Assembly: GCA_002788775.1 (NCBI GenBank) | Contig: PFRX01000013.1 | Span: 1 to 64,000, forward strand | Direction: 5' to 3' | Length of the DNA stretch: 64,000 nucleotides | From: Candidatus Peregrinibacteria bacterium CG_4_9_14_0_2_um_filter_53_11 | GTDB lineage: Bacteria > Patescibacteriota > Gracilibacteria > UBA1369 > UM-FILTER-53-11 | Part shown: positions 437 to 8,100 of the stretch, one piece after another | Position numbering within the stretch: the stretch's first letter is position 1 | How the letters are laid out: every line of letters begins with the position of its first letter | Notes under the pieces: model-generated | The model's database searches: none | What the model was told of the DNA's origin: nothing | What the model saw: only the letters and a program-made list of their open reading frames with translations | Program-made: the position numbers and the translations under genes

Positions 437-852
437 GGGGATGTTCCGGCATTCGACAGGGATCTTTAAAAGACATGGCTTTGCGTTCACGGCGTCGTGC
501 TGTCCGCCGTTATCCGTCCAGTGCACAATAAATGCAGATAATGCAGGAGAGTTGGAGGCTGTAGCAGCTCTGCGCACACCAGTGCCAGCGTTTGCTTAGT
601 TTTCACTCGCTACCTCCCCACATTTTGTAGGGGACGTCGGCCCGGTTGAGTCCTCATAGATCGGGTCGGCGCAACTTTTGAGGATCGGAAGGGTCGGCTC
701 GCCACCGGCACAACCTAAACAATCGGCGTACGCCGGAGTGGTTTTCCGTTCAACTTCTATCGCTCCGGTCGACAACTCAAGCTGAACTACTGAACGTAGA
801 CGGGCCATCTCTTTGTCCTTGGACGGGGGTTCGACTCCCCCCATCTCCACCA
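437..852 (+). ncRNA. ssrA: transfer-messenger RNA (tmRNA)
   Basis: The 5' end GGGGATGTTCC followed by CATTCGACAGGG is the tmRNA signature. GGGGATG (437-443) pairs with CATCTCC (842-848, one G.U pair). The discriminator is A849 and CCA is encoded (850-852). The T-arm GGGGG-TTCGACT-CCCCC is intact. This gives a one-piece RNA of 416 nt. The likely tag frame starts at GCA 534 and ends at TAG 597-599. It encodes 21 residues starting ADNAGELEAV and ending TPVPAFA. A second GCA at 543 could be the resume codon instead, giving 18 residues. The RNA rescues stalled ribosomes with SmpB. Short ORFs read antisense here are shadows. Confidence 0.93.
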
Positions 853-946
853 AATCGTAATAAATATGTGTGCTACAATAGCAAATATTTCAATCACTTA
901 TCCCATGCTACGATCGATAGTATGAAAGAGCATAATATTCGGCAAT

Positions 947-1702
947 ATGGTTAAGGCTAGATTCGTTTTGGTGTTAAGTTTTGCCCTAGCAATTCTTCTG
1001 ATCGCAGGAAGTGTTAGTGGATATTTTTTGTATATTCTTCCAAAACAGAACACCGAGCAGATGGAATTTGAGAAAATGAAGTATGAAGAAGAAAAGGTTA
1101 TCGAAGAGAAAAAGCCAGTAGAAGTTACGAACGAAGCCGTGACAAACAATATAAAAAAGACTCCTACCCCGAGGGTGAACCCGCAAATAACAGCGCCCGA
1201 AGTAACAACGACGCCTGTACCAGAAGCAGCGCCTGCCCCTGGCCCAACAACGACAGCTACATCAGTCCCTATTCCCGCACCACAAACAGTAACGGAGGAT
1301 CCAGCTTTAAAAATTGAGAAATGCAAAATATCGGCCACTGCAAGTGCACAAAATGATGCACACACAGCAATGAGTGGTTATATTTCATCAAATGCTTATA
1401 CATGTGAATCCCAAAATCTTGTTTCGGCAACTTACATGCAAAGCGTGAATGACAACATATCAAGATTAAATTACTTTAAGCAACAGCTTTCAATTGCACA
1501 ACAATACAGTCAAACAAGCCGCGCTATAGAGATGCAACTAGAGGTAACAAAAGCAAACACCGCAACGATTCAGGATCAAACATATCTATTAAATCTAAAA
1601 ACTTCCTGCCTCCAAGACCTCAAAGACGAATCAGACAGTATGGAGCAAAAGATGACCGAAAATCTTTACCAAAGTGCGTATTTAAAATGTCTTAACGAAT
1701 AA
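947..1702 (+). CDS. membrane-anchored protein with Pro/Thr-rich linker, function unknown
   Basis: A single N-terminal membrane helix (residues about 5-32) is followed by a charged Glu/Lys segment, a Pro/Thr/Ala-rich flexible linker (about 65-120) and a helical C-terminal domain of about 130 residues with four cysteines. This is the layout of a signal-anchored extracellular protein. The base composition is clearly more A+T-rich than the conserved neighbours, and the gene lies directly after ssrA, so recent gain is possible. A -10-like TAATAT (933-938) lies 8 nt before the ATG. No family was recognised. Confidence 0.6.
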   Translation: MVKARFVLVLSFALAILLIAGSVSGYFLYILPKQNTEQMEFEKMKYEEEKVIEEKKPVEVTNEAVTNNIKKTPTPRVNPQITAPEVTTTPVPEAAPAPGPTTTATSVPIPAPQTVTEDPALKIEKCKISATASAQNDAHTAMSGYISSNAYTCESQNLVSATYMQSVNDNISRLNYFKQQLSIAQQYSQTSRAIEMQLEVTKANTATIQDQTYLLNLKTSCLQDLKDESDSMEQKMTENLYQSAYLKCLNE

Positions 1703-1784
1703 AACTGAAGATTGGAAAAGCTCACAAGGACTCCTGCAGCTCCACCCGCAGAGTTTTAACTAATTGGTGGTACAATGAACACGC

Positions 1785-1928
1785 ATGATAACGCCAATCA
1801 ACATCAGCCAGCTGAATACTTCGATCTTCTTGCCGAATCCACCCATCGATGTATCGGAAACGGGGAAACCGCTAGAAGAATTAACTGACTTCTTCTGCAC
1901 AAATGAAGCGTGCGAAGCGGCGATTTAA
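1785..1928 (+). CDS. small ORF, possibly the 5' part of the following gene
   Basis: A 47-codon frame starts at ATG 1785 (MITPINISQL) and ends NEACEAAI-stop. An extended -10 box, TGG-TACAAT (1771-1776), lies 8 nt upstream, as for many leaderless genes in this window, so this ATG is the expected start of the transcription unit. The last 19 nt overlap the GTG start of the next frame. The helical sequence before this stop and the sequence just after the downstream GTG read as one continuous helix. It may be one gene split by a frameshift, or a short coupled upstream cistron. Confidence 0.45.
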   Translation: MITPINISQLNTSIFLPNPPIDVSETGKPLEELTDFFCTNEACEAAI

Positions 1929-2662
1929 CCTTAGGTGAAGGTTTAACTCGCCTTAGTAAAATAGAATATTATGTTAGCCTAGTTGAGATGAATACGTCCT
2001 CCCCGAAAGACTGCCAACCCACAGAAGCCCACCTCAAAAAGATGGTGGCTCGATGGATCCATCGTAGCGGTATCCAGTACTGTTTTGAAGAGTTCCAATT
2101 TATACGTAGGCCGGACCTTATCGCGTTTAACCCGGAACAAGGAGATGTCAGCCTATTCAATGTATTTTTACGCGTGCCGTTCGACTTCCTATCCGCATAC
2201 CACACTCGGCGTCACTTCACACCAGAAAGTATTGCGTACCAGTTCGGACGAGAACTAAAGACGTTAAAAAGAGACCTCGATCGCCTAACTAACTGGGGGT
2301 ACCTGGCGAAATCAGATCACGGGTTTAGGGTTATAAAAACAACCCCAATACTCTCAAGACTAATCACCGTTGAATGCAAGACCAAGGACTGGAGGGGAGG
2401 CTTTGAACAGGCACTATCATACAAAAAACTATTTGCCCCCAAAAGCTATCTTGCACTGCCGCTGGAAGCCGCAAAGCGAGCAGATAGAGACCCTTTTCTC
2501 GCTAATGGGATCGGTCTACTGGGGGCTACTTCTGAAGGTGATGTTACCTGCCTGGTACCAGCAAAAGACACGGTCGCTAGCCTCTATTTACACTCGGCTT
2601 CAGCGAGTATCATGCGATCTTTCTTCTCAAAGGGCCTTAAGCAGCTGCAACCATCGGCTTAA
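1910..2662 (+). CDS. winged-helix / PD-(D/E)XK nuclease-like protein
   Basis: The 250-residue protein has FEE then RRPDLIAF near residues 55-67 and VECKTKDWRGGFEQA at about 152-166. This is an E...PD...ExK order typical of restriction-endonuclease-like folds. ALSYKKLFAPKSYLALP continues the usual family pattern. Between the two halves, about residues 95-140, a helical segment (LKTLKRDLDRLTNWGYLAK, then FRVIKT) looks like a winged helix. It may cut or bind DNA as a repressor-like or defence protein. The GTG start lies inside the upstream small ORF and may not be the true start. The 3' end overlaps the convergent gene by 36 nt. The fold call is by motif only. Confidence 0.5.
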   Translation: MRSGDLTLGEGLTRLSKIEYYVSLVEMNTSSPKDCQPTEAHLKKMVARWIHRSGIQYCFEEFQFIRRPDLIAFNPEQGDVSLFNVFLRVPFDFLSAYHTRRHFTPESIAYQFGRELKTLKRDLDRLTNWGYLAKSDHGFRVIKTTPILSRLITVECKTKDWRGGFEQALSYKKLFAPKSYLALPLEAAKRADRDPFLANGIGLLGATSEGDVTCLVPAKDTVASLYLHSASASIMRSFFSKGLKQLQPSA

Positions 2663-3802
2663 GTGTGCAGAGTAATCTGGAGGGAAGGTGGCCGGCAGGC
2701 TATCCGCCAGAGCCACCCCCTGCGACAAAAAATCTCGGAGCATGGCAACTTTATCCGTTGTTCCGTTGAGCCTGTGAGCAAAGTTCTGTGTTTCTCGGGC
2801 CATTTGAACCATTGCCCCAAAATTACCTTCAGCCTCCTCTGGTGTAAGGCCAATATCCAGACGGTCCCAGACCCGAAGAGCATCCTGTATTTTAACCGTA
2901 TTAAGAAACTTGGGTGAGTAGACAAGCTTAGAACGTCGCAATGGACGGACGTCCTGCGCGGGATTTATGTTGCGAATATTGTAACTATCTCTATAAGGTA
3001 AGCCATAGGTACTTCCGATAAAAGCAGCCGGAAAAATGGCGGAGTAGAGGGCACCTAACATACCGGCTCGATAAAGAACGATGCTCCGCTCCGGAGATGC
3101 AGCAAGAAGTTTACCCATAAAGTTTTTTAGCCTGCTGAGGACCTCAACGGAGGAAGCAAAATCAATGTCCTGCATCACGAGGAAGTATCCGCTGACATTC
3201 AAGGATTTATACAAGTCTATCATCTTCAAAAAATCAGGCTGTTCCAGATTATCACTACCCAAAAATATACCCGCAAAGACCTTACGGGTGTCGCCTTTGT
3301 CTTTCATCTTAGCGAGCACGAACGCAGCAATAGAGTGGTTAAAGTGAACGTAACGGAAGTCGTGACCGCTCCGCTTGATGAAGTACGGATCATGTTGCAA
3401 CTGGGCAACGGGGACTGCCGTGTCCGCGTAAGTATCAATAACTGGGGTTATTATCGCCTCTCCCTTTGTCGGCTTCCTGAGAGCCTCAGCGATGGAACTT
3501 TCAACAATTTCCGCCCAAAAGTCGCGATGAGGCATATGCTTTATCTCGATTTTACGGCGAACTACCAACTCCCCTTGATCGTTAATGTCCTTCTGGTAAA
3601 ACATACGGGTTAGGGGGGGCTCAACGAGTAACGACTCTGCACATTTGTTAGCGTTGCCCCAGTACCCATTAGAGGTATCATGCTGAGAGATAATGCCCGT
3701 TAACCTAGGGATGTCGCCCGAGTCAACAAGTGACTTCAGCTTCTCAAGTATTTTCTTATGTCCCGTGGGGTAAATATCTGCATATAGAGTGAAGTGTCTC
3801 AT
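2627..3802 (-). CDS. conserved-looking protein of unknown function
   Basis: A 391-residue soluble protein without signal peptide or membrane helices. The middle (about residues 165-290) alternates short hydrophobic strands (VFAGIFLG, VSGYFLVMQDID, SIVLYRAGML) with amphipathic helices, which suggests an alpha/beta barrel. No catalytic motif was recognised. It converges on the nuclease-like gene with a 36-nt 3' overlap, so transcription of one runs antisense to the end of the other. It ends in TGA, rare in this window. Upstream lies a perfect 10-bp palindrome that could be its operator. A paired function with the convergent gene is inference only. Confidence 0.55.
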   Translation of the reverse strand: MRHFTLYADIYPTGHKKILEKLKSLVDSGDIPRLTGIISQHDTSNGYWGNANKCAESLLVEPPLTRMFYQKDINDQGELVVRRKIEIKHMPHRDFWAEIVESSIAEALRKPTKGEAIITPVIDTYADTAVPVAQLQHDPYFIKRSGHDFRYVHFNHSIAAFVLAKMKDKGDTRKVFAGIFLGSDNLEQPDFLKMIDLYKSLNVSGYFLVMQDIDFASSVEVLSRLKNFMGKLLAASPERSIVLYRAGMLGALYSAIFPAAFIGSTYGLPYRDSYNIRNINPAQDVRPLRRSKLVYSPKFLNTVKIQDALRVWDRLDIGLTPEEAEGNFGAMVQMARETQNFAHRLNGTTDKVAMLRDFLSQGVALADSLPATFPPDYSAHLSRWLQLLKAL

Positions 3803-3864
3803 ATAAAATTAAAGCGAAAGTAAGATGGTATAACCAAAGATTATAAGTACAGGCACAAAAAATC

Positions 3865-3889
3865 AAGTAGAAATTACTAATTTCTACTT
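3865..3889. repeat. perfect 10-bp inverted repeat, possible operator
   Basis: AAGTAGAAAT (3865-3874) and ATTTCTACTT (3880-3889) form a perfect inverted repeat around TACTA. It lies in the divergent intergenic space between the gene ending at 3802 and ogt. There is no flanking T-tract suited to an intrinsic terminator, so a protein-binding site is more likely. Confidence 0.5.
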
Positions 3890-3989
3890 CTTCCGATTCC
3901 TACATCTGCGTACTTACATCGAAGATATCTATCTATATCCCGCGGGCTACCATCTAGAAAGACCCTCTAAACTGGGCTAAAATGCCCCC

Positions 3990-4303: not shown

Positions 4304-5140
4304 ATGACACTTACTGTCGTTGGCATGTCGGGCACGGCCAACCTGGAGGCTCTCGAACTCGAGGACTTCCTGGCGACCTGGCGGCCCGAGGCACTCATCA
4401 TCCCTGGGACAGAACGCGATAACGACCTTCAGCCGAGAGTAGTGTCGGCAGCACGCCGTGCACTTGCCGAGAGGGTGATAACGGATGATGTTCGCGCCTT
4501 CTTCAATCGACGCCTGAATGACGCGCTCTTTGTAGCGGAAGCGGCCCGGAGCCACGCCCGCACCTATGGGGCAGCGGTGCATTTTTTAGAAAACTCCATT
4601 TTTGGAGACCGGGACGACCAACTGGCCATGGAGGAAGCCGTAGAGCGGATCCTGGAACGAGCGGCGAGTCTTAATCGTCTGGGGGAAAATGGCCTCGACC
4701 GCCTGGAGCAGGCCCGGCAGACGCGCTATGCGGAAGTCTGTAGAGTCCGGCGCGACCCCGCCAGATCTCCACTCGACCCGACTACACTTCGCGGACTTCA
4801 GGAAGACCACTTCGATGGCCGCCCCGCATGCGACCTCGAAGATGAGGCGTTAACGATGATGGCGAGTTTGGAGCGGACGCTCAGTGGCGTATCTCACCAC
4901 GATCACCTGATCGCCCTCGTGCCCATCGTACAGGTGATGCCAACAACTGAACTCTGCACCGTCGCCGACTACCTGGGTGAACGCACCATCCCCATCCTGG
5001 GGCTCGATGGTCGCCCAACAAAACGCCCGGCCTCGGCGGCTCGCAGCACAGGGAGAGGCATCGATATTCACGAGCAGCTGGAGTTGGCGGAGCGGGCGGC
5101 TGCCCGACGCGCAGGCCGCGACTTGAGCACCAAGGCCTAG
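4304..5140 (+). CDS. hypothetical protein, Arg/Glu-rich and helical
   Basis: A 278-residue soluble protein without signal peptide. It starts with a short strand (MTLTVVGMSG) and is then mainly helical with many Arg, Glu and Ala residues. A hydrophobic strand (LIALVPIVQVMP) lies near residue 205. The basic C-terminus (about 240-278) looks disordered. It follows ogt by 8 nt but has its own consensus promoter and is probably leaderless. It meets mfd tail to tail after 21 nt. No family was recognised, and codon use matches its neighbours, so it is probably a long-resident lineage-specific gene. Confidence 0.6.
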   Translation: MTLTVVGMSGTANLEALELEDFLATWRPEALIIPGTERDNDLQPRVVSAARRALAERVITDDVRAFFNRRLNDALFVAEAARSHARTYGAAVHFLENSIFGDRDDQLAMEEAVERILERAASLNRLGENGLDRLEQARQTRYAEVCRVRRDPARSPLDPTTLRGLQEDHFDGRPACDLEDEALTMMASLERTLSGVSHHDHLIALVPIVQVMPTTELCTVADYLGERTIPILGLDGRPTKRPASAARSTGRGIDIHEQLELAERAAARRAGRDLSTKA

Positions 5141-5161: not shown

Positions 5162-8100
5162 CTAGATCGGGCTCTCCTCGGGCTTTTTGTGCGCCTTGCC
5201 GTTTCCATTCGTCAGCTCGTCCTTGTCGACTTTTTCGCCGAGCATCTTTACACACTCGTGGAGCTCGTCGAGCCACTGCATTCCCAGATCCTTAATGTCG
5301 ATTTTGAGCTTGGTTCCGGTAATCGTCCACTTGTCGTTGCGCTGGAGCATGTAGATGATGCTCTCCGGCTTCACCTGCTTGCCGAGCTGCAGCACGATCT
5401 GTTTGCCGGCGTTCGAGGAGGGAGCCCCCTCGGCCTTAATTAAAAGCACGCCGGCGCGTTTGGCGAGGATCTTGAGCTTGATGACCCGGAAGAGGTTCAC
5501 GACCTCGCGGGGGAGCTTTCCGTAATCTTCCACCACATCCTCCTTGAGCTCATCCAGATACTGGAGCGAGTCGGCGGCGGCCATGCGCTGGTAGACGTTG
5601 ATCTTCTCCTTTGTATTGACGATGTAGTGATCGGGAACATAGGCGGTGAGTGGGAGCTCCACTGAGATCTCCGGCTCTTCGGAGACATCAGCACTCGACT
5701 TTCCGGCCTGCAGATCCTCAACCGCACGATTGAGCATGCGGATAAAGTGGCTGACGCCGACCATGTTGATAACGCCATGTTGGTTTACGCCGAGAATATC
5801 TCCGGCTCCACGAATCTCCAGATCTTTCATGGCGATCTGGAAGCCGGCTCCCAGCTCCGAGGCCTCAACAATGGCACGCAGACGCTTCTTGGCGTCCAGA
5901 CGAAGACGCTGGCTGTGGTAGAGGAAGTAGGCGTAGGCCTGGGACTTGCTGCGTCCCACACGTCCGCGAAGCTGGTAGAGCTGAGCCAGTCCAAACTTCT
6001 CGGCGTTGTTCACAATAAGTGTGTTGGCGTTGGCCAGATCGATTCCGTTCTCAATAATCGTCGAGCTCACCAGCACGTCGAAGCGGTGTTCTTTAAAGTC
6101 CACGATCCGCTCCTCGAGCTCCTTGCTGAGCAGCTTGCCGTGGGCAACACAGAAACGCGCCTCCGGGACAAGTGCCCTCAACCGTTCCGCAATGGCATCG
6201 ATCGTCTGAACACGGTTGTGGAGGAAGTAGACCTGCCCGCCACGTTTGAGCTCACGCAGAATGGCCTCGCGGATGAGGTCGTGCGAGTAGCGGCGGACTT
6301 CAGTAATGACGGGGAGGCGGCCGGGGGGAGGCGTCGTAATGGTTGAAATGTCACGCAACTTGTTCAGACAGATGTTGAGTGTGCGAGGAATCGGCGTGGC
6401 CGTGAGGGTGAGGATATCGACCTCGGCACGGAGCTGCTTAAACTTCTCTTTTTGCTTAACGCCGAAGCGCTGCTCCTCATCTACGATAACAAGGCCCAAG
6501 TCTTTAAAAGCGACGTCCTTCTGAAGAAGACGGTGAGTACCGACCACAATGTCCACCTCCCCACGCTTCAGCTTCTCTAAAACGAGCTTCTGCTCGCGCG
6601 GACTGCGAAAGCGGGAGAGGACATCAACTCGGACGTCAAAGTCCTCCATACGCTTCTGGAATGATCGGTAGTGCTGGTCAGCGAGAATGGTTATCGGCGA
6701 GACGAGTGCCACCTGCTTTCCGTTCTGAACGGCATTGAAGGCCGCACGCATCGCCACCTCGGTCTTTCCAAAGCCCACATCACCACAGATAAGGCGATCC
6801 ATCGGCTCGGGCTTGGCCATGTCTTTCTTAACATCTTCGATCGCCTTGCGCTGGCCGGGGGTCTCTTCATAGGGGAAGCTCTCCTCGAACTTCTTCTCCC
6901 TCGGCATGTCCAGCTCGTATGAACGGCCTTTGGCACGCTTTCGCTCAGCATAGAGGAGCAACAGCTCTTGGGCGATCTCTTCCGTCTCTTTCTTTACGCG
7001 CTTGGTCATCGTGGCCCACTCGGTCGAGCCAAGACGCGTCAGCTTGGGCGCATCGTCCTCAGATCCCACAAACTTGTTGACCTTATCGGCCTGATCGATC
7101 GGAACGAACAGCTTGTCGTTTTCGGCGTAACCCAGCCTCAGATACTCACGGGTAACGTTGTCGATCATGCGCTTCTCCAGACCCTCAAAACGGGCGACCC
7201 CGTGGTTGATGTGAACAACCAAGTCGTTCGGCTTAAGGCTCGTGAGAAACTCCCAGAAAACTCGCTCGGAGACCTTCCTCTGCTTCTCTTCACGGAGGTT
7301 GGCAACATCGCGGTCAGAGATAACTAGAACATTCAGATCACCGGCCTGGAAGGAGGAGGGCGGGACCTCATCTTTCGAGAGGGGCATAAGCCGCACGGCC
7401 GGGTGCTCCTCGGTGAAGGGCCCGCTCTCAAGGGTGAAGCGCACCTTCCTATCCTTGAAAATATCGGCGACCGCCTCCATATGCTTGGTGAAGTAGATCA
7501 CGCGCCAGTCGGTGAGGTTTTTCTCCTTAAGCTCGTGGGCCATATCGAGCAGGTCTTGATACTTCAAAACCGAAAGGTAGCGCAAACTTATATGGCTCTT
7601 CGTATCTTCGGGAAAGGGGGTGAAGGCGATCAGCTTACTATCCTTATCACGGCGCTGGAACATCTCCTCCCAGGTCTCAAAAAACTCATCGGTAACCTCA
7701 AGCTCGTCATCTACAATCAGCCCGTTCTGATTCACAAAGTCAAAGAAGGTGAGCCCCTTGAGCTCGACTCCCAGCGAGGAGACGTTGAGCTTAGCGAGCT
7801 TCTTGTGGATCTCACCCGTCTCCTGGCGGTACTCGAAAATGTCCGAGACCACGTCAAACTCGAACTCAATGCGCACCGGATACTCACTGTTAACCGGGAA
7901 GATGCTCAAAACGCCCCCGTTACCAAGGTAGCTGCCCCGCTCAAGATACTCGTCATCTGAGACCTCGTACCCCTCGGCGATCAGGCGCTCGAAGAGCTCG
8001 ACAGCTGTGACGCTCTGCCCCTTCTCTATAAGGAGTTTTCGGGCTTGGAGCTGGGCGTGGTCGGGCATCTCTGCAATGAGTGTGGTGTAGGGCACCACCA

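Follow-up and report, generated by a model that had tools for sequence, protein, structure and literature searches.

A nuclease gene and a convergent partner behind ssrA

We analysed a window of 64,000 nucleotides (nt) at the start of contig PFRX01000013.1 of Candidatus Peregrinibacteria bacterium CG_4_9_14_0_2_um_filter_53_11, focusing on the genes directly behind its tmRNA gene, ssrA. Two of these genes, encoding the proteins P0002 and P0001, converge and overlap at their ends. Pairs of this kind recur across several phyla and in an archaeon, often tail to tail. P0002 is a PD-(D/E)XK nuclease as judged by its residue pattern, and P0001 is predicted to belong to a new family with the fold of tRNA-guanine transglycosylases (TGTs). 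The features of the locus are as follows.

437-852, plus strand: ssrA
947-1702, plus strand: gene for an anchored protein of 251 amino acids (aa) with a single N-terminal hydrophobic segment, as read from the sequence
1910-2662, plus strand: P0002 gene, putative PD-(D/E)XK nuclease, 250 aa
2627-3802, minus strand: P0001 gene, 391 aa, predicted divergent member of the new TGT-fold family
2627-2662, no strand: tail-to-tail overlap of the P0001 and P0002 coding sequences, 36 nt
3865-3889, no strand: perfect 25-bp palindrome, 12-bp arms and one central base, 5' of the P0001 gene

The gene layout, the 36-nt overlap and the low GC content of the stretch with the anchored-protein gene had been described in the original prediction for this DNA and were all borne out; the stretch holding 947-1702 has a GC content of about 40-44%, against 56-61% on both flanks. 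The prediction had also placed a perfect 10-bp palindrome upstream of the pair. A palindrome is indeed present, but it is larger, with 12-bp arms around a central base, and it matches once in the window versus none in 100 shuffles. It is a possible operator or hairpin.

The partner gene adjoins the nuclease gene across phyla

The original prediction took the pair for an undescribed module and proposed asking whether the two genes co-occur, and keep their convergent overlap, in other genomes. A tblastn search with P0002 retrieved one plasmid relative, from Kocuria rosea (29% identity, E 1e-6), whose nuclease gene and a convergent gene have their ends 6 bases apart; the convergent gene encodes a kinase with a 400-aa domain fused to it. 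With the Kocuria nuclease as query, we obtained plasmids of Priestia, Kineococcus, Arthrobacter and the archaeon Natribaculum, each with an adjoining kinase and a similar 400-aa domain. A scan of genome contigs with the nuclease pattern gave 14 loci, and two scans of viral contigs gave three more. Finally, a nuclease profile (A6) hit 4 of 286 genomes in the window's phylum at E <= 1e-5 and, at E <= 1e-10, 8 of 346, 5 of 296 and 9 of 299 genomes in the phyla of three other loci, whose names (Actinomycetota, Bacteroidota and Bacillota) we take from the organisms in which the seed loci lie.

Across the four phyla, 26 of 1,227 genomes carry the nuclease, and a gene of the TGT-like partner family adjoins it in 24 of them (20 of 22 when the four genomes known beforehand, G000, G456, G459 and G460, are set aside). 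The two genomes without an adjoining partner, G770 and G1330, have the locus within 600 bases of a contig end. Counted by locus, the partner gene adjoins the nuclease in 41 of 50 loci (49 fetched plus the window, with 51 nuclease hits), the window's own partner having been entered by hand on the profile-comparison evidence given below. Nineteen of the 41 pairs are directly convergent, another 19 are co-directional, and in three (L050, L051, L090) a PIN-domain gene separates the convergent genes. Two of the loci, L029 and L030, are almost identical and hence not independent. The nine loci without a partner gene are five haloarchaeal plasmids (L024-L028) and four loci on short contigs or close to the end of a contig (L032, L034, L074 and L099). 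The genes thus co-occur across phyla with the convergent overlap kept, which gives good support to the prediction of an undescribed module, and we regard the identity of the two families and their genetic linkage as very likely.

The coding sequences overlap tail to tail

In the 19 directly convergent loci, the overlaps measure -6, 36, 77, 4, 44, 42, 45, 25, 23, 36, 12, 35, 12, 37, -2, 53, 11, 6 and 36 nt. These lengths are set by the stop codons alone and are therefore unaffected by the choice of start. At least 4 nt are shared in 17 of the 19 loci and at least 10 nt in 15, with a median of 35 nt. In the three loci with an intervening PIN gene, it is this gene that overlaps the nuclease gene, by 11, 27 and 38 nt. 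As a control, we counted annotated convergent neighbours by eye on two carrier plasmids (99 kb); one of 12 overlaps, by 67 nt. The difference between 17 of 19 and 1 of 12 overlapping by at least 4 nt gives a Fisher p of 1e-5, from a control that is small, limited to two plasmids and drawn from an incomplete gene table.

P0002 has the residue pattern of PD-(D/E)XK nucleases

Members of the PD-(D/E)XK superfamily are marked by an active-site Asp followed by an E-x-K motif, with a conserved Gln after it in many families. In our alignment of 39 nucleases, the E155-x-K157 motif of P0002 and its Q167 are kept in all 39, W161 in 37, and D69 in all 27 that have a letter at this position. By this pattern, P0002 is classed as a PD-(D/E)XK nuclease; Pfam gave no nuclease match for it. 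The ExK part of the prediction that one protein combines nuclease-like and winged-helix features is therefore well founded. Its winged-helix part met with a weaker match, that of the stretch from D69 to ExK with the archaeal HVO_A0114 model (E 0.067, under the model cut-off), and we read this segment as a putative inserted winged helix-turn-helix (wHTH). A similar segment occurs in many relatives and is missing in L029, L033, L035, L036, L037 and L039. Some nucleases without it have a separate gene in front; the gene preceding the nuclease in L043 is SocA/Panacea-like (E 5.5e-4, below the Pfam cut-off), and the one in L035 has no Pfam match.

Translation of P0002 may start at an internal ATG (position 1988), which would shorten the protein to 224 aa and in the alignment better fits the starts of its relatives. 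In the nuclease tree, P0002 stands next to L093 on a long branch with weak support (0.685), so we draw nothing from its position. At L094, two nuclease-family open reading frames (ORFs) follow each other on the minus strand (5915-6625 and 6669-6929), ahead of a kinase-sized ORF and a TGT-like gene.

P0001 joins a new family with the TGT fold

P0001 by itself resembles little in the libraries. Direct look-ups returned no match in Pfam, PADLOC or NCBIfam and a single PHROGs match at E 0.36; a comparison with Protein Data Bank (PDB) sequences gave chance rows only, searches of genome and viral contigs and of plasmid and phage collections gave none, and BLASTP against the Kocuria partner found nothing. 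A profile of 12 partners built without P0001 failed to list it, and a profile of four others placed it at E 0.12. P0001 was accordingly linked to the partner family at first by position and by sight, and later by profile-profile comparison. Against the 12-member profile without P0001, it scored 36.3 versus at most 20.2 in 30 shuffles. Against a 37-member profile, again without P0001, it scored 81.5 (E 1.5e-11, 244 columns), with the 34 remaining window ORFs of 300 aa or more at noise level (at most 18.8). Two subgroups of the partner family also match each other with 98.7% probability.

We modelled the family member of locus L035 with 14 sequences, obtaining a predicted local distance difference test score (pLDDT) of 87 and a predicted template modelling score (pTM) of 0.87. 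In VIA-align, this model matched archaeosine TGT with Z 21.6 and a root-mean-square deviation of 3.4 over 309 residues, and the best 50 rows listed were all TGTs; 936 of 1000 chains reached Z 8, so barrels generally score well against it. Foldseek alone put a TGT at the top (E 3.6e-4) with other barrels closely behind, and a viral structure library contained nothing at E <= 0.001. Sequence profiles compared with true TGTs gave no significant score (in one comparison, two of three TGTs were taken in wrong frames), and the Pfam TGT model, PF01702, has no match in P0001 or five relatives scanned. The TGT link hence rests on structure rather than sequence. On these grounds, P0001 is a predicted member of a new TGT-fold family, with the fold seen in the model of its L035 relative and P0001 joined to that relative by profile.

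Catalytic TGTs carry a nucleophilic Asp on the eighth strand and a zinc site of the form CxCxxC...H. Among the 38 aligned members of the new family, no conserved acid is found where we align this nucleophile, in a register set without structural superposition, and loss of the TGT nucleophile in the family is likely as far as the alignment can tell. A common D-P motif, whose Asp is kept in 33 of the 38 and replaced by Glu (EP) in P0001, would correspond to the TGT motif around the acid-base Asp, in our own register and with TGT residue roles taken from general knowledge. The zinc motif CxCxxC is present in 18 of the 38 members and absent in 20, including P0001; the motif matches archaeosine TGT at E 0.036. 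The module proteins are like bacterial and archaeosine TGTs (PF01702) in fold over about 309 residues and in the CxCxxC motif of 18 members. They differ by the lack of a Pfam TGT match in every member tested, by a non-acidic presumed nucleophile position and by an adjoining nuclease gene, and P0001 is without the zinc cysteines.

The window's genome (99% complete) is without a canonical PF01702 TGT and yet holds this divergent TGT-fold gene; the three other genomes tested each have a canonical one.

A third gene varies between loci

Where a third gene is present, it encodes a Ser/Thr kinase, a PIN domain or a SIR2-like protein; the window locus has none. Pfam confirmed the kinase domain in all four proteins tested (Kocuria, Priestia, L031 and L089), and a kinase is annotated in the Kineococcus and Arthrobacter records; in the remaining loci, the kinase is judged from ORF size and place. 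PIN was confirmed in both proteins tested (L050, L090) and SIR2 in one of two, L037 lying just above the cut-off and L072 giving no match. PADLOC models of PD-T4-6 and other Ser/Thr kinase defence proteins match the fused Kocuria and Priestia proteins, but in the kinase domain only and not in the TGT-fold part. The window's genome does have a kinase elsewhere, on contig 22, with no module gene nearby.

The module occurs on plasmids and viral contigs and next to defence genes

The module lies on plasmids of Kocuria, Priestia, Kineococcus, Arthrobacter and Natribaculum, those of Kocuria, Priestia and Arthrobacter being typed as mobilizable or conjugative, and on three IMG/VR viral contigs. On one of the viral contigs (L043, 3993-6365, plus strand), two ORFs that we read as recombinase-like are followed by the SocA/Panacea-like gene, the nuclease gene and the TGT-like gene. 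In a sample of neighbours picked by eye, seven of ten proteins match PADLOC models, and restriction or other defence genes stand next door in five of six loci. The matches comprise DruE/helicase and DrmMI, type III and type I methyltransferases, type IIG/DrmMI, Ppl and a type I restriction enzyme. Pfam, NCBIfam and PADLOC hold no match above cut-off for either core family, and in the open-access papers searched (no preprint server was covered) we recognised no description of a nuclease combined with a TGT-fold protein.

Proposed function and alternatives

The nearest precedents for a TGT-fold protein in defence are DpdA of the Dpd systems (PMC6884629) and the TGT of the BREX-related capture (BRC) systems (PMC12839542). 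Dpd systems are similar in having a TGT-fold protein together with nucleases in a mobile, defence-type setting, but no PADLOC model, those for Dpd among them, matches either core protein, and the module has two to four genes compared with over ten in the bacterial dpdA cluster (PMC6884629). BRC systems likewise place a TGT homologue in a defence locus; they have PglZ, DUF6079, a STAND NTPase, DUF4007 and HerA/FtsK (PMC12839542), none of which we noticed in the module, the corresponding models not having been run on every neighbour. We class the module with the nuclease-based conflict systems, with a likely defence role, and the pair itself was found in none of the libraries or literature searched.

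For the proposal that the pair is a defence module, then, the evidence is genomic context, and from this context a role in defence or another conflict of mobile elements is probable. That the core pair is a small mobile module acting in such conflicts through recognition and cutting of nucleic acid is also the reading we lean towards, with slightly less assurance. That the nucleophile is likely lost while the nuclease residues are invariant suggests recognition and cutting over modification. The TGT-fold protein would be the recognition part, its base-binding barrel holding, without exchanging it, a purine flipped out of foreign DNA (or RNA), and the nuclease with its winged helix would be the cutting part. 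An exchangeable kinase, PIN or SIR2-like gene could regulate the core or supply another toxic activity. With their tails overlapping, the two transcripts would be mutually antisense at their 3' ends, and we propose that nuclease and partner are thereby expressed in balance. Since the window has no third gene, we expect either that the two genes alone suffice or that P0001 has lost its activity. Immune operons under kinase control have been described, as has a kinase together with a VapC-like PIN nuclease, but these kinases belong to another family than those of the module (PMC13373217).

That the sensed feature is a modified guanine-like base in DNA is only a tentative suggestion. The full proposal is equally speculative. 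It envisages an undescribed class of prokaryotic immune module whose TGT-fold protein no longer exchanges bases but reads guanine-type bases that are flipped or modified, thereby licensing the PD-(D/E)XK nuclease; the third component (kinase, PIN or SIR2-like) would be swappable, and the antisense tail-to-tail overlap, kept across phyla, would serve as an expression switch.

Several observations weigh against reading the pair as a conflict module that recognises and cuts nucleic acid. The model of P0001 itself is poor (pLDDT 47), with STAS at the top (Z 8.4 over 92-97 residues) and TGT next (Z 7.4, 207 residues). With 19 of the 41 paired loci co-directional, the tail overlap is not required. 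On the five haloarchaeal plasmids, a related nuclease stands among other genes, some methyltransferases included, but no TGT-like gene, and the nuclease therefore works elsewhere too; in two of them, L024 and L025, a gene for a site-specific DNA methyltransferase lies near the nuclease. The neighbour sample, having been chosen by eye, is biased, and neither core protein is represented by a PADLOC model, P0001, P0002 and P0003 giving no match there at E <= 1.

Among the alternatives, the one that survives best, while still unlikely, is a toxin-antitoxin or abortive-infection system acting on RNA. In it, tRNA would be bound by the TGT-fold protein, and on infection the cell would be killed or arrested by its partner, be it the nuclease, the PIN protein or the SIR2-like one. 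TGTs do bind tRNA, PIN and SIR2-like partners do occur in module loci, and the gene ahead of the L043 nuclease resembles SocA/Panacea, albeit below the Pfam cut-off. However, most PD-(D/E)XK enzymes are DNases, the gene in L035 that corresponds to the Panacea-like one lacks a Pfam match, and in the convergent loci the nuclease and TGT-like genes do not form one operon. Panacea is an antitoxin domain (PMC10440598).

It is improbable that the module is a minimal Dpd-like modification-restriction system whose TGT-like protein puts 7-deazaguanine into host DNA and whose nuclease cuts DNA without it. The TGT fold of the L035 relative would suit this role, as would the precedent of DpdA, a TGT paralogue that modifies DNA in Dpd restriction systems (PMC6884629, PMC12839542). 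Against it stand the lack of a conserved Asp at the aligned nucleophile stretch, the loss of the zinc site in 20 of 38 rows and the missing canonical TGT in the window's genome. Least probable is a pair of regulators outside defence, for instance in plasmid or chromosome maintenance with the winged helix as repressor on the palindrome, for which the palindrome 5' of the P0001 gene and a weak Rrf2-like match in two relatives speak, and against which the invariant nuclease residues count.

If recognition and cutting by the pair is true, a widespread module joins the catalogue of prokaryotic conflict systems, and the TGT fold gains a role outside base exchange. The module would also provide a rare example of a convergent coding overlap kept between distant phyla, in which one could test what such overlaps do. 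Two protein families are also named here for which Pfam, NCBIfam and PADLOC had no match above cut-off.

Surroundings of the locus

No second match of ssrA DNA was found on the same contig at E <= 0.001, with no finer repeat search made, in agreement with the earlier remark that the tmRNA 3' end is not repeated at the far side. P0001 and P0002 each occur in one of 192 genomes of the class, namely that of the window, and are absent from the other 191 searched; tblastn of all three genes against the ssrA stretches of five family relatives gave no match. The genes are therefore accessory. An island integrated at ssrA is a hypothesis only: the surroundings of ssrA vary among relatives, where the pair is absent, but neither an integrase nor a repeat was found.

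The anchored protein encoded at 947-1702 has a Pro/Thr-rich stretch and gave weak, low-complexity-type matches only. It was not seen beside the nuclease/TGT-like pair in the other loci inspected and is probably not part of the module. Further downstream, a gene at 4304-5140 (plus strand), between an O6-methylguanine methyltransferase-like gene and mfd, encodes a 278-aa protein with no match in Pfam, NCBIfam or the ssrA stretches of the five relatives. Gene content around ssrA varies among these relatives, mfd and a VIT1 gene each being present in four of the five stretches.

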